Below, piece by piece: positions 20,528 through 30,105 of a stretch of DNA of 64,000 nucleotides (position 1 is the stretch's first letter; each line of letters opens with the position of its first letter). The notes beneath the pieces are model-generated. The model was not told the origin of the DNA, made no database searches, and saw only the letters and a list, made by a program, of their open reading frames with translations. Made by a program: the position numbers and the translations under genes. Source of the stretch: Acidihalobacter yilgarnensis (GTDB lineage Bacteria; Pseudomonadota; Gammaproteobacteria; DSM-5130; Acidihalobacteraceae); contig NZ_CP017415.1 in NCBI RefSeq assembly GCF_001753245.1, positions 434,001 to 498,000 on the forward strand. The letters are read 5' to 3'.

Positions 20528-20790
20528 ACTACGGTGATTCGGGGTGTTTTCTATCAGCAGTCTGGTAGCCAAATCAAGCTGCAAACAACCCCAAATTCCG
20601 GCTCGCGCATCGTCGGGGCTTGGTGCATAGTGGCAAACAAGGGTGTCGCTTACAGGGAGGTTCCGCACATCATGCGTTCGCAGTCTTATCATCATTCCGT
20701 GCCTAACATCACGCTCAACCCGACCGCCCACCGTCTACGCCGCTGGGTTCCCTCCGCGCGTCGCGCTCCGGCGGCGGGTTAGCTCAAACG
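20522..20790 (+). mobile_element. Integron cassette 1
   Basis: Bounded by GTTATGC at 20521 and the G^TT of attC1 at 20790. It is homologous to cassette 3 over its full length. A GTG-started frame (20534-20782, 82 codons) is conserved in both copies (see next entry) but runs into the attC. R'' of its attC (GCCTAAC) differs by one base from the complement of its own left boundary (GTTATGC), so it may have lost a base match by mutation or been captured in exchange. Confidence 0.7.
20534..20782 (+). CDS. Small cassette-encoded ORF, doubtful coding
   Basis: An 82-codon GTG-started frame. The translated part before attC matches the corresponding frame of cassette 3 at many positions (GVF-QQ-GS, SGSR-VGAWCIVA-KGV, EVPH-MRS). 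The last third is just translated attC (TLNPTAHRLRRWVPSAR). Conservation of the peptide suggests possible coding, but nucleotide conservation alone could explain it. No ribosome-binding site; function unknown. Confidence 0.3.
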   Translation: MIRGVFYQQSGSQIKLQTTPNSGSRIVGAWCIVANKGVAYREVPHIMRSQSYHHSVPNITLNPTAHRLRRWVPSARRAPAAG

Positions 20791-20796
20791 TTATGC
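20701..20796 (+). repeat. attC1 site
   Basis: R'' GCCTAAC at 20701 and R' GTTATGC at 20790-20796. The inner arms AACCCG-A-CCGCC and GGCGGCGGGTT pair with one extrahelical base, as required for folded bottom-strand attC recombination. Length 96 bases. Confidence 0.85.
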
Positions 20797-20814: not shown

Positions 20815-21321
20815 GTGGAAGAAATAACGTTACACTCTATAGAAAGAGCATCTGAAGAAGCTGTAAAACTTTGGTCTCTTTCGAGTGCACAATACCCGTT
20901 TCAGAATAGGCTCATTCAAGAACATGCAAATGCAGCAATTATCGAAGTTATAAGTTCATTTGCGCTAAACGCACGTAGAGCCATGGAAGTCTTATCACCA
21001 AATGTAAAGTACCCACTCAACGCGGCAAGATGGAAATGGGAACCTACTACGAAAGGAGACAAAGTAGCGGATCTATGGGATGCCCTGAATAGAATTATCC
21101 ATGCCCAGAAGTTGTATGTTGGGTTTGAGCGGTTGCCAGATAATGTTTCAGTTATTGATGGTGGCGCAATAATCGTTCCATATATTCGAGCGGAAACAGA
21201 TCGTAAAGAATTGGCGTTTATTGATCCCTTTTCTTTAGCATATGCATTTTTGTATGGTGCATTACCAGCACTCATTGAGGCAAGAAATTCTCAATTCGAG
21301 GGTGTACCAAGTAATGCATAA
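20815..21321 (+). CDS. Cassette 2 hypothetical protein
   Basis: A 168-aa, mostly helical protein starting at GTG 20815 with AGGAAA upstream. No family recognised. The N-terminal half is amphipathic helices (ERASEEAVKLWSLSSAQYPF; SSFALNARRAMEVL); the C-terminal part ends in a Pro/Ala helix (YAFLYGALPALIEARNSQF). Length and helicity would allow a HEPN-like bundle, but no R-x4-6-H motif is evident. Its stop codon TAA lies inside the attC2 R'' box. Composition is clearly AT-richer than the surrounding chromosome, as expected for captured cassettes. Confidence 0.75.
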   Translation: MEEITLHSIERASEEAVKLWSLSSAQYPFQNRLIQEHANAAIIEVISSFALNARRAMEVLSPNVKYPLNAARWKWEPTTKGDKVADLWDALNRIIHAQKLYVGFERLPDNVSVIDGGAIIVPYIRAETDRKELAFIDPFSLAYAFLYGALPALIEARNSQFEGVPSNA

Positions 21322-21387
21322 CAAGGCGCTCGTTCGGACGCAAACTACGCTGCGCTTCGTTTGCGCCACACAGCTTGGTCGTTAGGC
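21316..21387 (+). repeat. attC2 site
   Basis: R'' GCATAAC (21316-21322) is the exact complement of GTTATGC at the cassette's own left boundary (20790-20796). R' GTTAGGC lies at 21381-21387. The central arms GACGCAAAC and GTTTGCG pair around CTACGCTGCGCTTC. Length 72 bases. Confidence 0.9.
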
Positions 21388-21653
21388 ACTCGGGCGATTC
21401 TTGGTGTTTTCTGTCAGCAGTTTGGTAGCCCAATTTGGCTGCAAAAACGCCCTTCAAATTCCGGGTCGCGCACCGTCGGGGCTTGGTGCATAGTGGCAGG
21501 GAAGGGCGTCATCCACAGTGAGGTACCGCACGTCATGCGTTCGGAGTTTTTGCATTACATCGTGCCTAACAACACGCTCAATCCGACCGCCCATCGGCTA
21601 CGCCGCTGGGTTCCCTCCGCGCGCTGCGCTCCGGCGGCGGGTTAGCTTTAACG
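21382..21653 (+). mobile_element. Integron cassette 3, homologue of cassette 1
   Basis: Starts at TTAGGC (21382) and ends with attC3. Along its length it matches cassette 1, with a GVFCQQFGS...VGAWCIVAGKGV frame conserved (readable from about 21391). No start codon with a ribosome-binding site is evident, so it may be a gene-less or tiny-ORF cassette that duplicated within the array and then diverged. Confidence 0.65.
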
Positions 21654-21659
21654 TTGGGC
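21564..21659 (+). repeat. attC3 site
   Basis: R'' GCCTAAC (21564-21570), complement of its left boundary GTTAGGC. R' GTTGGGC lies at 21653-21659. 96 bases, nearly identical to attC1 in its inner arms. Confidence 0.9.
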
Positions 21660-21732: not shown

Positions 21733-23349
21733 GTGCTCGTATACGCAAATGAAATCGAAATTGTTGGCAACAATCCAGCATTGCAAGTGTTGCGGGGTAT
21801 CGCTGTTTGGCTATCCGAGAAGTTGGATGAGCGTTTTACTATTCGAGATGTCACTTTGCCAAACGAAAGAACGGGGGGGAATCCAAAGGTTTGGTTACGC
21901 ATTGATAGAGCAATAGGTGACGATTTCAAACTTTACTCTTGGGTATTAAAGCACTCTGATTCACAGGTATCAGGTAGGCAGTGGGTAACGGAGCTTGGCC
22001 TCAAAGATGAGGATGGAGGGCCTTCTCACTTTTCATGTGTTGTGTATACCGAAGAACAAAGTATTTTGGTTTCAGAACCCGTGCAGGCTAGTCGCCCGAG
22101 AGTCGTTAGATTTATTTTTAACAATGTCCAAAATGAAACTGATGTGCAATTCGCCCTAGGCAGCATTGGTTCTGGAGTCAAGTGGGTTGGAAGCGATATC
22201 GATTCTTATCGCGGTTTGCTCGCCGATATCAATAATGAAACTCGCAGCTATCCATTAGTTCTTGTTAGTCCAGATAACGAAGGAAAATATGTCGTTGATC
22301 CGAAAAAACTTCAAGGCACATTATTTGGGTTAGCCCAAGTCGTGGGGGTTGATAAAGACTTTAATAGCTACGACATGGAAGAAGTGCTAGGTCGCGAATA
22401 TTCGGCATGGGCTGGGGCATTAAATATCATCCGTACTCCGCATCGTGACGGCCGAGTATTCACACACCTTATCTTTCCCAGAGACTTTCCAGTTGATCTG
22501 GATACCCCGCATAAGAAGGAATGCTTTATTTTAGGGCGCGTAAGCCACAATACAAATATACCGAGACAACGAAACAGAATTAGGCCTGAGGGAGTTCGCG
22601 CGTTTGCTTCGAGGAAACGACTTGAAAAGAGAATTGCTGATTTGGCGGAAAAGCCAGATGATGCACTCCGTGATGAACTTGGAATGGTTTACGAAGAACT
22701 GTCGTCCCTGAATACTCAGCTTGAGCAATCACAACAGGAGAAGGAAAGTTTAGAATTCAGCTTGCTTGAAAGTGAGGAACTTATTCACGAACTCGAGAAA
22801 AAAGCCAAAACCAGCGCCTATCTTCACAGCCAACGAGGTGACACATCGGAAGCCCTACCTGCGGATGATGCTATATTCACGGAACTTATTGGTGTAGCTA
22901 CCGATCCGAAAGGACCCACACCCGAGGAGTGTCTAGTCCTGCTTGCAAAGTTATATCCCCAGCGATTGGTGGTGTTGCCAACTGCTTTAGAAAGTGCGAG
23001 GGGAGTTAGTACGTTCTCTCAAAGTCGTCGGTTACTTGATATGTTGAACCGTCTTGTAACCGAATACTTGCCTAAATTTATAAAAAGTGGTGATACTGCC
23101 GCACGTACGACGTTCACCAATAATGAGTTCGCGGCGCGTGAATCAGATAAAGTTGTAAACAATAAGCAATTCTTGGCGTACAGAATATTTGCAGTTGAAG
23201 GAATGCAAGTTGAGATGCTCAAGCACCTCAAAGTAGGTGTTGCCGACGATCCAAAATCAACCATTCGAGTTCATTTCGAGATCGATCAAACATCGAAACG
23301 CGTGATAATCGGTCACTGTGGTTTACATTTGCCACTCCCTGGACGGTAA
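21733..23349 (+). CDS. Cassette 4: 538-aa coiled-coil protein of unknown function
   Basis: Starts at GTG 21733, directly after an in-frame TAA, with AGAGG upstream. An alternative ATG at 21674 with a GGGG ribosome-binding site is in another frame, so an N-terminal frameshift cannot be excluded. Domains by eye: mixed alpha/beta region 1-280 (with LVLVSPDNEGKYVVDPKKL and GLAQVVGV around 170-205); a charged coiled coil about 288-365 (EELSSLNTQLEQSQQEKESL); and a C-terminal domain 366-538 ending in a compact beta-like unit (IRVHFEIDQTSKRVIIGHCG). No TM segment or catalytic motif recognised. This is the largest cassette in the array. Size and architecture recall effectors of anti-phage systems, but that is only a guess. 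Confidence 0.8.
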   Translation: MLVYANEIEIVGNNPALQVLRGIAVWLSEKLDERFTIRDVTLPNERTGGNPKVWLRIDRAIGDDFKLYSWVLKHSDSQVSGRQWVTELGLKDEDGGPSHFSCVVYTEEQSILVSEPVQASRPRVVRFIFNNVQNETDVQFALGSIGSGVKWVGSDIDSYRGLLADINNETRSYPLVLVSPDNEGKYVVDPKKLQGTLFGLAQVVGVDKDFNSYDMEEVLGREYSAWAGALNIIRTPHRDGRVFTHLIFPRDFPVDLDTPHKKECFILGRVSHNTNIPRQRNRIRPEGVRAFASRKRLEKRIADLAEKPDDALRDELGMVYEELSSLNTQLEQSQQEKESLEFSLLESEELIHELEKKAKTSAYLHSQRGDTSEALPADDAIFTELIGVATDPKGPTPEECLVLLAKLYPQRLVVLPTALESARGVSTFSQSRRLLDMLNRLVTEYLPKFIKSGDTAARTTFTNNEFAARESDKVVNNKQFLAYRIFAVEGMQVEMLKHLKVGVADDPKSTIRVHFEIDQTSKRVIIGHCGLHLPLPGR

Positions 23350-23365: not shown

Positions 23366-23434
23366 GCCCAACAAGGCGCTCGTGTGGGACGCTGCGCGCT
23401 AACGCGCTTGCTCCCCACAGCTTAAACGTTGGGC
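23366..23434 (+). repeat. attC4 site
   Basis: R'' GCCCAAC (23366-23372), complement of cassette 4's left boundary GTTGGGC (21653). R' GTTGGGC lies at 23428-23434. Inner arms GTGGGAC...CTCCCCAC and GCGCG/CGCGC. 69 bases. Confidence 0.9.
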
Positions 23435-23459: not shown

Positions 23460-24071
23460 ATGACACTCACAAATGCATACGTGCAGGTTTATGGTCAGTT
23501 GCCTGAGATATTTCAGCGCATCTCGGAAGCCGCTGCCCCCGAGAAGTTCACAACTCAGCATCTGAAGGATTGGGGATATACATCATCCAATTTCCGTGCC
23601 GTAATTCCAATCTTAAAGGCGCTCGGTTTCCTGTCTGCGGATGGTACACCGACTACTCGATATCACGACTATCGGGGTGCTCACCCACGGCAGGTAATGG
23701 CAGAAGCAATCAAAGAAGCATACGGTGATCTTTTTACGATCAAAGCAAAGCCCACTACCGCTGACCGCGACCTAATTGAAGGAAAATTCAAAAGTTCCCA
23801 TAACGCAAGTCCCAATACCGCAAAGCTAATGGCGGCAACGTTTTTCGCGTTGTTGGATCTCGCTGACATGAATGCGAAACCACCAGTTCCAGCCGAGGCG
23901 AAGGTCGTACCACAAGAGACACCAGCGCCAAAGGAAGCAGAGGAAGTATTGCCAAAGGTGCACGGCCGTCCATCCCTGCACTACAACATCCAAATACACT
24001 TACCTGCAACAAAAGACATCGAGGTATTCAACGCAATCTTCAAGTCATTGAAGGAGCACCTCCTTGACTAA
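23460..24071 (+). CDS. Cassette 5 gene A: DUF5343 protein
   Basis: A 203-aa protein whose N-terminal ~145 residues match the DUF5343 winged-helix-like pattern: LPEIFQRISEAAAPEKFT, then FRAVIPILKALGFLSADGTPT and YHDYRG. A Pro/Ala-rich linker follows (about 145-175), and a C-terminal strand-helix unit (LHYNIQIHLPATKDIEVFNAIFKSLKEHL). The start has GGGAG about 9 bases upstream. Its last 8 bases overlap the start of the HEPN gene, implying translational coupling and perhaps a complex. DUF5343 proteins often sit beside HEPN or other toxin-like genes; a regulatory or antitoxin role is inference. Confidence 0.82.
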   Translation: MTLTNAYVQVYGQLPEIFQRISEAAAPEKFTTQHLKDWGYTSSNFRAVIPILKALGFLSADGTPTTRYHDYRGAHPRQVMAEAIKEAYGDLFTIKAKPTTADRDLIEGKFKSSHNASPNTAKLMAATFFALLDLADMNAKPPVPAEAKVVPQETPAPKEAEEVLPKVHGRPSLHYNIQIHLPATKDIEVFNAIFKSLKEHLLD

Positions 24072-24651
24072 CTTCCGGAAGGATCTCCGTGACTACATGT
24101 TTCGCGGCCTGATGTTTGAATCAGAGGCGGGGCAATTCCAGGCTGCCGGTATTCAGGTCGGTGCAGATCATGGCCAAGCCGAAGAACGGTTGCTGTCGGA
24201 AGCGCTAACACCCTTTGGTGTTTCACGCCGAAATGGCGCTCTTGAAATGGCCCGCCTGTATGCCGTTCTTCATTGCTTCGAGAACGAAGTTCGCTCCCTA
24301 ATCCGCGAAACGCTTGAAGAGAAAGAAGGACCGGAGTGGGCCAACAAACTTCCCGCCAAAGTAAAGCAGCATGCCGAGTCTCGACAAAAGACAGCGTTCT
24401 CGGATTCGTGGCTTGAAGGGGAGAAGTCCGACATCCTCGGCTTTGTCGATTTCGGCCAACTGGCGTCAATCATTCTCGAAAATTGGAAACACTTTGAAGC
24501 CCTGATGCCATCTCAGCATTGGCTCAAACAACGGATGGATGAATTGGAGAAGGCCCGCAATTTTATCGCCCACAACCGCACGCTTCTCCCAAGCGAATTC
24601 CAGCGCATTTACATGTATGTCGCCGACTGGAACAGGGTTATCGGACTTTAA
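24064..24651 (+). CDS. Cassette 5 gene B: Swt1-type HEPN protein (candidate RNase)
   Basis: A 195-aa protein from TTG 24064. The C-terminal ~130 residues match the Swt1-like HEPN helical bundle: the FENEVRSLIRETL helix, LPAKVKQHAESRQKT, FVDFGQLASIILENWKHF, and the HEPN active-site motif R-x4-H in KARNFIAHNR, followed by SEFQRI. HEPN domains with this motif are usually metal-independent RNases in toxin and abortive-infection systems. The partner DUF5343 gene overlaps it by 8 bases. Together they fill one two-gene cassette, as seen for toxin-antitoxin or defence cassettes. Confidence 0.82.
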   Translation: MTNFRKDLRDYMFRGLMFESEAGQFQAAGIQVGADHGQAEERLLSEALTPFGVSRRNGALEMARLYAVLHCFENEVRSLIRETLEEKEGPEWANKLPAKVKQHAESRQKTAFSDSWLEGEKSDILGFVDFGQLASIILENWKHFEALMPSQHWLKQRMDELEKARNFIAHNRTLLPSEFQRIYMYVADWNRVIGL

Positions 24652-24658
24652 CCATGTT

Positions 24659-24730
24659 GCCCAACCCGTCATTCCAGCGGACCGTCAAAAAGCTGCGCTT
24701 TTCGCCGTCCGCTGAATTCAAACGTTAGGC
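24659..24730 (+). repeat. attC5 site
   Basis: R'' GCCCAAC (24659-24665), complement of GTTGGGC at 23428. R' GTTAGGC lies at 24724-24730. Strong inner stem CAGCGGACCG/CCGTCCGCTG with GCGCTT loop region. 72 bases. Confidence 0.9.
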
Positions 24731-24737
24731 CTACGCA

Positions 24738-25196
24738 ATGGACCTGCCAGACACCATCACCATCCAAATCAATGACCAAACCGGACAGCCGGTGCCGGAC
24801 ATTATTGTTCAGCTTACAGTTAAGTCTGGAAACCGGAACGCGTACCAGATACTGAGCCCTAAGACTGGGAGTGACGGCCATGCCCAGATCACGAAGCCAG
24901 ACTTCATCGGCCAGTTCGAAGATCATTGGGAAATGGGCCTTATGGATTACAACGGCACAGTTGAGTCAGCGAGCCCAGATGTTCAGGTGAGCCTATTCGA
25001 TCCCTCCTGGCACATAGCAAACCCAGAGGCTTGTTTGGCTTGGCCGCTGTTCAAAAATGAGCAGGGGCACTGGGCATCGCGCCAGGCACAATACGAGCAC
25101 CTCGTTTCATGCGCAAACCCTCACTACTTAGCCACGCCGAAGCCGGTAAACCTTGAAACAAACAACAAAATTTCTCTTACTGTGAGCAAGCCGTGA
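24738..25196 (+). CDS. Cassette 6: small beta-sandwich-like protein
   Basis: A 152-aa protein from ATG 24738, seven bases after the attC boundary and without a ribosome-binding site, as is common for cassette genes. The N-terminal half reads like an Ig- or transthyretin-like beta-sandwich (ITIQINDQTGQPVPDIIVQL, then SDGHAQITKP). The C-terminal half has several Trp and ends near attC6. No signal peptide. Family not recognised. A role in binding or in modifying a partner is possible but unsupported. Confidence 0.75.
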   Translation: MDLPDTITIQINDQTGQPVPDIIVQLTVKSGNRNAYQILSPKTGSDGHAQITKPDFIGQFEDHWEMGLMDYNGTVESASPDVQVSLFDPSWHIANPEACLAWPLFKNEQGHWASRQAQYEHLVSCANPHYLATPKPVNLETNNKISLTVSKP

Positions 25197-25202
25197 GGGA
25201 AG

Positions 25203-25260
25203 GCCTAACCAGCAGCCCAAGCCGACGCCGTACCGGCGCGGCTTACCTTGAACGTTAGGG
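25203..25260 (+). repeat. attC6 site
   Basis: R'' GCCTAAC (25203-25209), complement of GTTAGGC at 24724. R' GTTAGGG lies at 25254-25260. Compact 58-base site with inner arms AGCCGACGCCG/CGGCGCGGCT. Confidence 0.9.
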
Positions 25261-25290
25261 CCACAAAGAATCAGGTGAAGGAGTGGTTTT

Positions 25291-25704
25291 GTGATAGTTA
25301 CGGGAATTTTTCTTAAAGCCAATCAAGCTAGAATCATTACTTTATCTGGCTCACGCGCATCACATGAACTGCTAGCTGAGAAGTTTACGAAACTTGATCT
25401 GCCAAAGAATCCGACACAGGATGATGTAGAGGTGTTTGTGCAGGCATTTAGAGCTCATTGCACGAGCAACAGCATTGATAAGGTAATAATCAACAGGCGC
25501 GCCACTAACGGTCAAGGTGCTGGCGGTGCAGGAACTTTTCTCCTGGAGGGTGTTTTTCTAGCTACTTCGCAAGCTCCAGTGGAGTTTGTTCATTCAGCAA
25601 CAATTCGCGCGACAGATCGGCGTGAACCTGATTTGAAAATCGAACGACCAAGCACCGTGGATTTGGGGAAAGCATACGATTTAGCATTTGAGGGCTTAAA
25701 TTGA
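25291..25704 (+). CDS. Cassette 7 gene A: DUF3010-family protein
   Basis: A 137-aa protein from GTG 25291 with GAAGGAG upstream. It follows the DUF3010 pattern: an N-terminal strand pair ([16 protein letters not shown]), a helix, the conserved [19 protein letters not shown], and a late [13 protein letters not shown]. The family is small, with a fold reminiscent of RNase H-like domains; function unknown. The stop overlaps the kinase start by 4 bases (TTGA), so both are made together. A DUF3010-kinase pair is unusual and is discussed in the findings. Confidence 0.8.
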
Positions 25705-26819
25705 ACCCAAAGAGCTTCAGCACTGACGATTTGCCCGAAGAGGCACAGCAAGCTCTTGCACAGTTCCCGGAGTTTGAAGCTCTCGAATACAATGCCTCAG
25801 GTGCTAATGGTGATGTATTGCTAGGGCATCATCGTGTCTTGAAACGGCGTGTTGCTCTTAAAATTTACTTTCACGAAGATAGTGAGATTGATCAAGAACC
25901 AGCCATTTTAGCAAGAGTAAATCATGAAAATGTTTTAAAGGTTTACGACGCGCGAAAACTCGAAGCTAATTGCTCGTTTTACATGACGCCCGCTGCCGAT
26001 GAAGGAGATTTGGCGAAATTCCTAGATAAGTATTACCTGTCCACTAGTTTATCTCATAGCTTGCTATGCCAGCTTTTGTCGGGTTTGTCAGCATTACATG
26101 ATCCAACAATTGGGATAGTTCACCGGGATCTGAAGCCTGAAAACTTATTGGTTAACAATGATAAGCTTGTAATCGCCGATTTTGGCTCAGCTCGAAAGTT
26201 CGATTCGGCAACAGGTCAAGCTCCTGCATCAAAGCACAGCATTCTTTTCAGACCCCCTGAAGCTTTTGGGTCTGGCGCATTTTTCGATAGAAGTTCGGAT
26301 GTCTATCAATCCGGAATAATAGGATATATGCTTTTTGGCGGCAGTCTTAGCAACGACTTATTAACGCATTTAAGTCAAAGAGACATGAAAGCCTTTAGGG
26401 AAATCAATCAAAATGATGACTTCGCTACTTCGCAGTTTATCGACGGTTGCTTAGAACAGCGAATTAGCAAGCAACGTCTTCTCGACTGGTCTAGCATCCC
26501 TTGCTTCATACCCGCGCCATTGAAGCGAGTTTTGCGCAAAGCTGTCCAAAGTCATGGTGAAAGATATGATTCCGTTAGTGAGTTTCTGGCAGAACTAGCC
26601 AGGGTCAGAAATGGTATGCCTGAATGGATTCAAACCAAGGCAGGACCGAAGCTAGAGAATTGGAAAGGAACCGATTTCCTTCTAGAGCGCGATGGCGGGT
26701 TTTTTCAGGTAAAGAAAAAGAGGCACACGAGCAACAATTTTAGAGCAGATAAAAACTATACTCCTGGAAAGTTAGATGCAGTATTTAAACAACTTCGAGC
26801 TAATACTGGGCTCCCATAG
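25701..26819 (+). CDS. Cassette 7 gene B: Ser/Thr protein kinase
   Basis: A 372-aa soluble eukaryotic-type kinase from TTG 25701. Kinase motifs: glycine-poor N lobe with VALKIYF (Lys), an acidic helix residue in QEPAILARV, catalytic loop [13 protein letters not shown] in [10 protein letters not shown], and [21 protein letters not shown] in the activation/P+1 region. A C-terminal extension (about 305-372, Lys-rich, [12 protein letters not shown]) follows and could bind a partner or nucleic acid. No TM segment. Gene end abuts the R'' box CCCTAAC. Hypothetically the kinase phosphorylates or gates the DUF3010 partner. Confidence 0.85.
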
Positions 26820-26850
26820 CCCTAACAATGCCATTAACTCGTAAAATAGA
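26820..26850 (+). repeat. attC7, truncated
   Basis: R'' CCCTAAC (26820-26826) is the exact complement of cassette 7's left boundary GTTAGGG (25254-25260). The remainder of the site, including R', is missing: after about 25 bases the sequence changes to the AGGGGTCAGGTCTCGT block that precedes the IS. The array was therefore cut here. Confidence 0.7.
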
Positions 26851-26883: not shown

Positions 26884-27306
26884 GGTAATCCGCCCGAAAA
26901 GTAGTAGCGTTCAGAAGTGGAATTTTCCGATACTCACCGGTAAGGAGATTCCGCATGAAGAAATCGCGATACACGGACAGCCAGATCATCAGCATTCTCA
27001 AGCAGGCCGAGGCCGGCACGCCCGTGCCTGAGCTGTGCCGCGAGCACGACATGAGCAGCGCCACGTTCTACAAGTGGCGGGCCAAGTACGGCGGCATGGA
27101 CGCTTCGCTGATGGCCCGCCTGAAGGAGCTGGAGGACGAGAACCGGCGGCTGAAGAAGATGTACGCCGAAGAGCGTCTGGTTTCGGAGATTCGCAAGGAA
27201 GCCCTTGAGGGAAAATGGTAAGGCCCTCTTCGCGCCGGGAGAGGGCCCAAGACTGTGTGGCGCAACGGGGTATCAGCATCGGCCTGGCCTGCCGTGCGTT
27301 TGGGAT
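26884..27306 (+). repeat. 423-bp tandem direct repeat, copy 1
   Basis: Left IS end, orfA and the first codons of orfB, followed directly by a second, apparently identical copy at 27307-27729. The junction is GGGAT|GGTAATCC. Both copies start at the IS terminus, so the duplication used the IS end. Possible routes are one-ended transposition, circle-junction reinsertion or slippage. Confidence 0.85.
26955..27221 (+). CDS. IS3-family transposase OrfA, copy 1
   Basis: An 88-aa protein with a helix-turn-helix ([20 protein letters not shown], then [17 protein letters not shown]) and a leucine-zipper-like tail ([20 protein letters not shown]), typical OrfA of the IS3/IS407 group. It binds the IS ends. 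Ribosome-binding site AAGGAG. This copy belongs to the duplicated 423-bp unit and is followed only by a truncated orfB start. Confidence 0.9.
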   Translation: MKKSRYTDSQIISILKQAEAGTPVPELCREHDMSSATFYKWRAKYGGMDASLMARLKELEDENRRLKKMYAEERLVSEIRKEALEGKW

Positions 27307-27729
27307 GGTAATCCGCCCGAAAAGTAGTAGCGTTCAGAAGTGGAATTTTCCGATACTCACCGGTAAGGAGATTCCGCATGAAGAAATCGCGATACACGGA
27401 CAGCCAGATCATCAGCATTCTCAAGCAGGCCGAGGCCGGCACGCCCGTGCCTGAGCTGTGCCGCGAGCACGACATGAGCAGCGCCACGTTCTACAAGTGG
27501 CGGGCCAAGTACGGCGGCATGGACGCTTCGCTGATGGCCCGCCTGAAGGAGCTGGAGGACGAGAACCGGCGGCTGAAGAAGATGTACGCCGAAGAGCGTC
27601 TGGTTTCGGAGATTCGCAAGGAAGCCCTTGAGGGAAAATGGTAAGGCCCTCTTCGCGCCGGGAGAGGGCCCAAGACTGTGTGGCGCAACGGGGTATCAGC
27701 ATCGGCCTGGCCTGCCGTGCGTTTGGGAT
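27307..27729 (+). repeat. 423-bp tandem direct repeat, copy 2
   Basis: Second copy of the unit at 26884-27306. It runs on into orfB (GGGATCAGTCAGACATGC), so this is the copy continuous with the rest of the element. Confidence 0.85.
27378..27644 (+). CDS. IS3-family transposase OrfA, copy 2
   Basis: Same 88-aa product as the copy at 26955-27221. orfB begins at ATG 27638 in another frame, overlapping by 7 bases. In IS3 elements the two are normally joined by -1 frameshifting into an OrfAB transposase. Confidence 0.9.
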
Positions 27730-28192
27730 CAGTCAGACATGCTATCGGTATCAAGCGAAGCTGTCGGAAGAGAACGCGCGCATCGCCGACTGGCTGGTTC
27801 GGCTGACGCACAAGCAGCGCAACTGGGGCTTTGGGCTGTGCTTTTTGCACTTGCGCAACGTCAAGGGCTTTGGCTGGAATCACAAGCGCGTGTACCGCAT
27901 CTACCGGGCGCTGGAACTGAACCTGCGGATCAAGCCCAAGCGACGGATCGTGCGCGACAAGCCCGAGCCATTGGCCGTGCCCGAGGCGCTCAACCAGAGC
28001 TGGTCGATGGATTTTATGCACGACAGCTTACAGGATGGGCGCCCGTATCGGCTGTTCAACGTCATTGACGACTACAACCGCGAAGGATTGTGCATCGAGG
28101 CCGACTTCTCGCTACCGGCCGAACGGGTTGTGCGCGCACTGGATCGGGTCATCGAATGGCGCGGCAAGCCGCAGGCGATCCGCTGCGACAAC

Positions 28193-28419
28193 GTGCTAAC
28201 TGTAGAGTCAAGCGCTGAGGTACAGGCGAAAGCAGCCTAGGCCGTGCTGGACGTCCTTGAATGGCTGTATCCGCCGCTATCGAACGATGCCCGTGGGCTT
28301 CCACGATCGAAAAGATCCCCTGATCTAACCATAGTGAACACGAGGTCCGCCAAGCGGCCTCGACCGTGCTTAAAACAGCATGGGGTCCCGTGGAAGGCCC
28401 GAACATTATCTACGGGATC
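28193..28419 (-). ncRNA. Candidate bridge-RNA region of the IS110-type element
   Basis: The 227-bp non-coding end downstream of the transposase. IS110-family elements encode a bridge RNA that pairs donor and target DNA; in the IS1111 group it lies at this end. Visible structure includes the hairpin CGAGG-N12-CCTCG (about 28350-28371) and further short GC stems. The boundaries and the pairing loops have not been determined. Confidence 0.35.
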
Positions 28420-29700
28420 CTAATCGGTCCCAACGGCCCTACAGAGAGGGGTCGATCCACGGGGCAAACTCGTTTCGAAATAACAGCGGTACGTGGTTCG
28501 ATGCTTGACCAGGCTGTAAGCGACCCGCGCCATCTTGGCCGCGACCGCCGTCAACGCTTTGCGTTTGCGATCGGCGTTGAGCGGGTCGGGTTGCACATAA
28601 CGCTCGTACTTTTGCCGGAAGCTGTTCTCACGCATGCGCACGGCGATGGTGGCGGCGAACCAGAAGGCGAAGCGCAGTCTGGCGTTGCCGCGCTTGGACA
28701 ACTTCTCCTGGCCACGGAACTGGCCTGATTGCGACTTGGACAAGTCCAGGCCGCAGTACTTGAGAAACTGCCGGTGATGGGAAAAACGGCGCAAATCGCC
28801 TGCCTCGGCCAAGATAGTGAGGGCGAGCACAGGCCCTATACCGGGAATGGATCGCAACGACTCGTAATCGGGGCGTCCCTGCAGCAGGCGATGCGCGGTC
28901 TCGGCCAGGGCCTCGCGTTGTTCGATCAGTTGCTGATAACGGCGCAGTTGGAGCCGAAACGTCTCGATGGCCACATCGTCGCCAGCGATCGGCAAGCCAA
29001 CGCTGGTACACGCCGTATCGTACAGTTCCCGAATCCACGAGCGTTTGTTGACCTTGCGCCCAACCACGTTCCAGGCCTCGCGCTCGAACGCCTCAAAGGA
29101 CAACGCACGCACTGAGGCCGCCGTCGGGAAACGGATCAGGAAGCGTGCAAACCACTCCGCCTGCGTGGAGTGGAAGTAGCGTTCGCTCTCCGGGAAATAC
29201 AGCGGCAAATAGTGTGTCATCAGGCTGTGCTGGAGCCGCGTTCGGGCCAGACTGATCTGGTAGTGGGTTTTGGACAGCTCCTGCAGCCCATGGTGGCCGG
29301 CGATTAGCGGATCGACATAGCGCTGAGTAACGCCCTGCTTGAGCAGGGCGAGGATCACTGCGGCATCCTTCGGGTCGTTCTTATCCCACGAGTTGAACAG
29401 CGCCTCGCGGTAACGAGCGCCAGCGATCGAGGAAACCAGGCAGACATCGAAACCCTCCTTGAGCAAACGGTACGCCAGTGTCCGGTGGCAATCCCCGGTC
29501 GGTTCAAAGGCGATACGAACCGGAGCAGGGCACAAATGCAGCAGATCGACCAACCGCTGATGGTCTTCCTGCAAGCTGTTCATCCGGAAGCGCCGATGCT
29601 TGCCATCAGGCGTTTCGATGAGAACGGCATGGGTACGCTTGGCAATATCGATCGCCACCCAGGTGGCCGCTGGCGTAGCATCATTGCGGGTAGTCATCAT
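28420..29700 (-). CDS. IS110-family transposase (DEDD recombinase)
   Basis: A 426-aa protein. N-terminal RuvC-like DEDD domain: VAIDIAKRTH (Asp), IAFEPTGDC (Glu) and KNDPKDAAVIL (Asp-x-x-Asp). C-terminal transposase-20 domain: LRSIPGIGPVLALTILAE, FLKYCGLDLSKSQSGQF with the nucleophile-type Ser region, then KRGNARLRFAFWFAA. The frame is open to 29769; ATG 29700 is preferred because AGGAG lies 7 bases upstream and the family N-terminus starts soon after. Confidence 0.92.
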   Translation of the reverse strand: MMTTRNDATPAATWVAIDIAKRTHAVLIETPDGKHRRFRMNSLQEDHQRLVDLLHLCPAPVRIAFEPTGDCHRTLAYRLLKEGFDVCLVSSIAGARYREALFNSWDKNDPKDAAVILALLKQGVTQRYVDPLIAGHHGLQELSKTHYQISLARTRLQHSLMTHYLPLYFPESERYFHSTQAEWFARFLIRFPTAASVRALSFEAFEREAWNVVGRKVNKRSWIRELYDTACTSVGLPIAGDDVAIETFRLQLRRYQQLIEQREALAETAHRLLQGRPDYESLRSIPGIGPVLALTILAEAGDLRRFSHHRQFLKYCGLDLSKSQSGQFRGQEKLSKRGNARLRFAFWFAATIAVRMRENSFRQKYERYVQPDPLNADRKRKALTAVAAKMARVAYSLVKHRTTYRCYFETSLPRGSTPLCRAVGTD

Positions 29701-30105
29701 CGCGAATCTCCTGTGGTGTGTGAGAACCCTCAGGATGCTCTTCTCGATGATGGCTGCCCAACGGCTCATGCTTCGATATGTACTACGGGCCAGAATACGT
29801 CAGCACGACCCTGGCCGCCTGGGCAGCCAAGCAACGGCATTGCGCTCAACTTCATCCAACCCGGCAAACCGCAGCAGAACGCCTATATCGAGCGCTACAA
29901 TCGCACCGTGCGCTACGACTGGTTGAACCAATACCTGTTCGAGTCGATCCACGAGGTCCAAAACTTCGCCACCCGCTGGCTCTGGACCTACAACCACGAA
30001 CGGCCAAACATGGCCCTCGGAGGCATCACCCCAAAACAGAAGCTCGCCCTGGTGGCTTAACCCTTCCATTTCTGAACATCGCTAATAATGGGGGGATTAC
30101 CCTGC

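Follow-up and report, generated by a model that had tools for sequence, protein, structure and literature searches.

The two genes between 25291 and 26819 raise the question of why a small protein of the orphan Pfam family DUF3010 and a Hanks-type kinase share one integron cassette, and what the two might do together. The initial annotation of this DNA had presented them as a possible undescribed system, made of a protein with an RNase H-like fold and a soluble kinase. We found that the pair is a real, mobile and conserved two-gene unit, which is best read as having an anti-phage role. We consider it likely that the cassette is an abortive-infection module like that of phage 933W, in which a RuvC-fold partner and a Stk-type kinase bring about a shutdown triggered by infection.

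In the window (the whole stretch of 64,000 nucleotides that was analysed) both genes lie on the plus strand and share four bases, 25701-25704. The DUF3010 gene has a GTG start with GGAG at 25280, the kinase gene a TTG start with GAGGG at 25690, and the pair sits within one cassette of a short attC array (Table 1). The start of this cassette is marked by the R' box GTTAGGGC(C) at 25254, and the R'' box GCCCTAAC at its other end is the exact complement of that R'. The overlap and the single shared cassette that had been annotated are thus borne out by the ORF coordinates and the boxes, and the locus has the make-up of an integron gene cassette, that is, ORFs bounded by attC with complementary R' and R''. 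Note that the closing attC is truncated: beyond R'' it has been destroyed by IS insertions that begin at about 26840 and reach to 30060.

Table 1. Features of the cassette array around the DUF3010-kinase pair (positions in the window)
Feature	Position	Strand	Evidence
attC-like site, upstream cassette	20701..20796	+	attC scan
attC-like site, upstream cassette	21316..21387	+	attC scan
attC-like site, upstream cassette	21564..21659	+	attC scan
HEC-07-like candidate defence protein, 538 aa, neighbouring cassette	21733..23349	+	PADLOC E 6e-31
attC-like site, upstream cassette	23366..23434	+	attC scan
PDC-M34A (DUF5343) and PDC-M34B (HEPN_Swt1), candidate phage-defence pair, neighbouring cassette	23460..24651	+	PADLOC E 1e-73, 3e-68; Pfam
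attC-like site, upstream cassette	24659..24730	+	attC scan
152-aa protein, cassette directly upstream of the pair	24738..25196	+	weak Ig-like (Big_1) match below cut-off
attC directly before the pair	25203..25262	+	direct reading and attC scan
DUF3010 gene, 137 aa	25291..25704	+	PF11215 E 9e-29, 101 bits against a curated cut-off of 25
Hanks-type Ser/Thr(/Tyr) kinase gene, 372 aa	25701..26819	+	PF00069 E 3e-28, 99.6 bits against a cut-off of 31.7
Lys-rich C-terminal kinase module, residues 309-369, four strands and a helix	26625..26807	+	AF2 secondary structure
R'' GCCCTAAC of the pair cassette's own attC, abutting the kinase stop	26819..26826	+	direct reading
Nested IS elements: IS3-type orfA twice, IS110-type transposase on the minus strand	26955..30060		ORFs; Pfam HTH_Tnp_1, DEDD_Tnp_IS110, Transposase_20

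Besides the site at 25203-25262 there are five complete attC-like sites upstream, between 20701 and 24730. The attC stem score separates sites poorly, and the calls rest on the R'/R'' boxes, on clustering and on direct reading. The GC content of the array is 44-52%, compared with 58-65% on most of its flanks. A full integron integrase is present in the genome (TIGR02249 above cut-off, C1:22520-23458) at a distance of about 430 kb, so that the array is detached from it. Since we saw no promoter inside the pair cassette and the integrase is distant, the pair may be silent in the window. The pair is absent from two genomes of the same genus, in keeping with a mobile cassette.

Some further features of the array were seen in passing. 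The stretches 20534-20796 and 21361-21659 are alike in sequence and hold no convincing gene, and the long attC sites at 20701-20796 and 21564-21659 are closely similar; these stretches may be gene-less cassettes. The HEC-07-like protein (21733-23349) has a central coiled coil and is the sole gene of its cassette. Downstream of the pair, the IS3-type orfA is present in two identical tandem copies (26955-27221 and 27378-27644), and the IS3-type orfB is interrupted by the minus-strand IS110-type transposase (28420-29769), with the remainder of orfB at 29485-30060. According to the parts of PMC12409362 covered here, integron cassettes are well known to carry anti-phage systems. Like the cassettes of Vibrio chromosomal and mobile integrons described there, the window array has defence genes flanked by attC; on the other hand, the window array is small and far from an integrase, and those parts of the paper mention no Stk-type kinase pair.

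Following the suggestion of the initial annotation, we searched genomes for adjacent DUF3010 and kinase genes, and the adjacency was found elsewhere as well. Eight mobile DUF3010 loci, five from partner-first and three from kinase-first searches, all have a kinase downstream (8/8). Among those from the partner-first searches are plasmid pHG1 of Cupriavidus necator H16 (66% and 54% identity), a prophage contig (L086) and two Pseudomonadota genomes (L119, L120), while the kinase-first searches gave the pair on Rhizobium plasmids (L083) and on two viral contigs (L147, L148); in L148 a P2-like prophage carries it between its scaffold gene and its terminase gene. The window DUF3010 had no match in the phages collection, and three viral scans gave no further DUF3010-linked pairs. 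A kinase-first contig scan with the window kinase was saturated by the HRDLKPEN pattern and returned only generic kinases, which were kept as a background set. Since DUF3010 and the kinase are found together again in many unrelated loci, their adjacency in the window is not due to chance.

Ordinary DUF3010 is a core chromosomal gene of many Gammaproteobacteria and accounts for about 36 of the 40 matches in 398 genomes. None of the 40 core chromosomal loci that were read has a kinase motif nearby. Because a kinase follows the eight mobile loci but none of the 40 core ones, DUF3010 is of two kinds, of which only the rare mobile kind is kinase-linked. The core proteins belong to the same Pfam family as the window protein and have its length (profile match E 2e-30), but they stand alone (without a kinase in 40/40) and keep Glu or Asp in strand 1, where the window protein has Phe. 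Several of the mobile pairs adjoin defence genes, namely IetAS on pHG1, a type IIG restriction enzyme at L086 and McrBC at L119. Upstream of the pHG1 pair there are AAA ATPase and TniQ-like genes (L082 1554-5661), which suggests a Tn7/Tn5053-like element adjoining the defence genes. The DUF3010 of pHG1 (L082 7581-7991) is not listed as a gene in the plasmid records.

A more distant match led outside the DUF3010 family: an E. coli kinase in a lambdoid immunity region, which is Stk of phi24B and related phages. The parts of the citing literature covered here describe Stk of 933W as an abortive-infection kinase that shows little activity until the cell is infected, is switched on when HK97 infects and excludes this phage (PMC3681748, PMC8008677 and PMC6356687, citing Friedman et al. 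2011). We see that the lambdoid stk is preceded by an ORF of 153 aa (orf153), annotated as hypothetical or RuvC-like, with an overlap of 7 bases, and that in lambdoid prophages this pair lies in the immunity region beside the cI repressor gene. EDL933, the host of 933W, carries the same orf153-stk pair, and of the 223 E. coli genomes that match it at all, 221 contain at least 80% of the pair. Lambdoid phages have a small basic ORF of 54 aa immediately after stk (L085 5020-5184, L273 3005-3169), not seen in the window, which could be a third, minor member of the operon.

The same arrangement extends beyond E. coli. Nearly all non-generic prophage kinases of the Stk kind on viral contigs have a RuvC-like ORF upstream, as does the kinase of an SPbeta-type Bacillus phage. 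A partner-first scan of prophages of Pseudomonadota and Bacillota gave the partner ORF followed directly by a kinase motif in 38/38 loci, and the pair of the prophages is also present in one further genome, from an even draw (G162). We compared 30 pairs, DUF3010-linked and prophage ones together, whose members we call linked. In most of them the gap between partner and kinase is between -8 and +12 bp (-4 in the window). Like the 933W module, the window pair has a RuvC-like partner directly upstream of the kinase, (nearly) overlapping with it and homologous to the 933W partner.

The homology of the partners is seen in a profile comparison. DUF3010-linked and prophage partners align with an hhalign score of 42.5 (E 2e-6), compared with 11.6 +/- 1.9 (maximum 17.4) for 100 column-shuffled controls and 10.4 for a reversed one, and the prophage partner profile finds the DUF3010-linked partner of genome G041 at E 5e-7. 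The prophage partner, including that of 933W, is accordingly predicted to be a remote relative of DUF3010. On the kinase side, the window protein is about 25% identical to the 933W-type Stk and matches phrog_2361, the phage Stk family, at E 1e-37 (131 bits), a model of phage kinases that has no curated cut-off. A maximum-likelihood tree splits all 30 linked kinases from 45 background kinases with support 98, and among the 30 it has one group linked to DUF3010 (support 99) and one from prophages (87). Since this tree is unrooted, a single exclusive clade is not proven; the linked kinases need not be one, and those linked to DUF3010 may branch with the background kinases. Partner and kinase distances are strongly correlated (Mantel r 0.93 overall, 0.89 and 0.86 within the two groups), as expected of a unit that is inherited together.

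The window pair and the 933W/phi24B module thus have in common a compact, soluble Hanks-type kinase with all catalytic residues, a phrog_2361 match and a short C-terminal module, an overlapping RuvC-like ORF upstream, and a mobile context. They differ in the type of partner (PHROG_3875 in the phages, DUF3010 in the window), in the C-terminal module, which is not recognisably homologous between them, and in their setting (prophage immunity region against integron cassette), apart from the distance of the kinases noted above. Because orf153-stk of 933W belongs to the set of overlapping pairs of a RuvC-like ORF and a kinase, we read the window pair, judging by sequence, as a relative of the 933W Stk module that has diverged from it and is carried by an integron; that module itself consists of two conserved genes, not one.

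In the window kinase we find Lys54 (which binds ATP), Glu66, His141-Arg-Asp143-Leu-Lys-Pro-Glu-Asn148, Asp160-Phe-Gly and PPE at 185-187, and with them the VAIK lysine, the glutamate of helix C, the HRD and DFG motifs and the APE region of Hanks-type kinases. The catalytic residues are invariant in 30/30 linked kinases, and the whole motif set, including the APE region, is invariant or nearly so among them. The residue table therefore agrees with the intact HRDLKPEN and DFG motifs noted before; of the two observations that had been named in advance as speaking against the pair, genes never adjacent elsewhere and dead kinase motifs, neither was made. The AlphaFold2 model of the kinase has a pLDDT of 91. 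The Lys-rich C-terminal extension of the initial annotation is real as well, and in the model it is a confident small module of beta-sheet plus helix with many basic residues (pLDDT about 90). In both the DUF3010-linked and the prophage kinases a module follows a conserved Trp. A profile of the prophage C-termini found nothing above background among the DUF3010-linked tails, so the module of 933W Stk is not recognisably homologous to that of the window kinase and there is no detectable sequence homology between the two groups of tails. From the order of strands and helix we had suspected an AP2-like or double-stranded-RNA-binding fold for the module. A Pfam scan of the kinase tails gave no usable match and the fold search was swamped by kinase domains, and we claim no identity for the module.

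The partner scores well above the curated cut-off of its Pfam family (Table 1). DUF3010 has been placed in the RNase H-like superfamily near the resolvases, and conserved active-site residues have been reported for the family (PMC3985635). In an AlphaFold2 model of moderate confidence (pLDDT 69) the window protein has the RuvC-type RNase H-like fold: RuvC proteins make up its eight closest VIA-align matches, at 8-15% identity, and the best of them reaches Z 10.2 with an rmsd of 2.7 over 104 residues. The RNase H-like fold that had been proposed for DUF3010 is upheld by these matches. In RuvC the catalytic acid of strand 1 is Asp7, and the acid at this position is essential in two-metal nucleases of the RNase H-like fold. 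The window protein shares the fold of the Holliday-junction resolvase but lacks this first catalytic acid, with Phe at residue 7. The acid is missing in 27 of 30 linked partners (Arg takes its place in 22/30, an acid is there in 3/30); Asp or Glu is kept in the DUF3010-linked copies L120, L147 and L148. As the strand-1 acid is missing, we rejected DUF3010 as a direct resolvase, and no resolvase activity is expected of the window partner. Because the acid is lost in 27/30, the partner in most members is probably a sensor or regulator rather than a nuclease or resolvase. Another residue, Glu86, is conserved in 29/30 partners; by our reading it does not correspond to a catalytic residue of RuvC, and it perhaps marks a site of binding. 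A KEOPS chain is also among the fold matches. KEOPS offers a structural parallel, in that Kae1, which has a related fold, binds and restrains the small kinase Bud32 there.

The defence kinases PD-T4-6, Stk2 and MAD6 share with the window pair only the kinase domain, and we rejected membership in them on these grounds. Their PADLOC models match the window kinase domain with 96, 48 and 110 bits, respectively, but they have other sizes and domains, and none of them includes a RuvC-like partner. The PD-T4-6 profile (292 residues) is matched only over 15-211 and the Stk2 model (500) only over 180-315, neither of them at full length, while the match to the MADS kinase MAD6 reaches 73.9 bits against the NCBIfam NF047741 cut-off of 460.

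How could such a pair work? One overlapping mRNA would encode both the partner and the kinase, and in the uninfected cell the kinase would be held inactive. The RuvC-fold partner would most likely be the sensor of infection, or the route by which infection is sensed, and it might recognise a nucleic-acid structure made by the phage or a phage recombination or replication protein; alternatively, the partner might hold the kinase off until a phage infects. The kinase would then autophosphorylate and phosphorylate host or phage proteins, and this phosphorylation would halt growth and phage production. By analogy we infer that the integron copy acts like 933W Stk, with the partner as sensor or activator and abortive infection as the outcome.

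A different explanation would be a toxin-antitoxin pair in the manner of HipBA, in which the kinase is a constitutive growth-arrest toxin, the upstream protein its antidote, and defence a by-product of losing the antidote. The small upstream gene that overlaps the downstream kinase has the right layout, and addiction would suit the mobile setting of an integron cassette or a plasmid. However, HipBA consists of a HipA-family kinase and a DNA-binding antitoxin, whereas the window has a PF00069 kinase without a HipA match and a DUF3010 partner with a RuvC fold, which is not that of a DNA-binding antitoxin. Moreover, a strict antidote should not be lost while the kinase frame is intact, and this is the case at three loci: codon 61 of the pHG1 DUF3010 gene is an in-frame TAA in the two plasmid records, and in E. 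coli SHP24 and SMN013SH2 (L271, L272) the RuvC-like gene that precedes stk carries an IS1, within it or at its beginning. These loci argue against a strict antitoxin role, and the partner may perhaps be dispensable; they agree with a partner that acts as a sensor, where its loss would do no more than put the system out of action. Two of the 38 prophage loci (L228, L232) show the opposite state, with the kinase frame broken and the partner intact. Altogether we regard a toxin-antitoxin pair as unlikely.

It is also rather improbable that the pair serves the lysogeny or physiology of its carrier, such as prophage induction or DNA repair signalling, instead of defence against other phages. The lambdoid pair does lie beside cI in the immunity region, and from its RuvC fold the partner might be expected to contact intermediates of DNA repair. 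The lambdoid immunity region is, on the other hand, also the home of classical exclusion genes such as rex, 933W Stk excludes HK97, and the pair is found outside phages as well, beside defence genes in the integron, on a plasmid and on a chromosome. A last possibility, that the RuvC-like protein is an effector nuclease which the kinase merely switches by phosphorylation, agrees with the fold, with the genetic coupling and with the conserved active-site residues reported for the DUF3010 family (PMC3985635), and L120, L147 and L148, with their Asp or Glu, could still work in this way. Given Phe7 in the window, Arg in 22 of the linked partners and the loss of the strand-1 acid in most of them, we think it very unlikely.

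We therefore return to the abortive-infection module. The pair is probably a mobile anti-phage switch with a second component that has been overlooked. In the literature searched, which includes few subscription papers and preprints, we found nothing that describes DUF3010 in defence or assigns the RuvC-like ORF to the Stk system. Of the undescribed system of the initial annotation, the pairing as such does have a precedent in stk of 933W, with a RuvC-like ORF that is a remote DUF3010 homologue in the same overlapping layout; what is undescribed in that literature is the partner as a part of the module, the DUF3010 branch and the location in an integron. More tentatively, the pairs may represent a widespread, unnamed two-component class of abortive infection, carried by prophages, plasmids and integron cassettes and spread over two or more phyla, in which a RuvC-fold receptor, mostly without its acid, switches on a Hanks kinase. 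The receptor might respond to phage recombination or replication intermediates or to a resolvase-like protein of the phage, and Stk of 933W would be the first, incompletely described member; we hold this wider picture to be possible, though doubtful in its full extent.

Papers since 2011 cite 933W Stk as an abortive-infection kinase encoded by one gene alone, and the parts of the citing literature covered here do not explain how infection activates it. The conserved, co-inherited RuvC-fold partner could be the sensor or regulator that this picture lacks, and the question of Stk activation becomes directly testable through one small gene. For the families involved, the finding links a mobile branch of the orphan Pfam family DUF3010 to phage defence, and it adds a kinase system to the defence genes known from integron cassettes.
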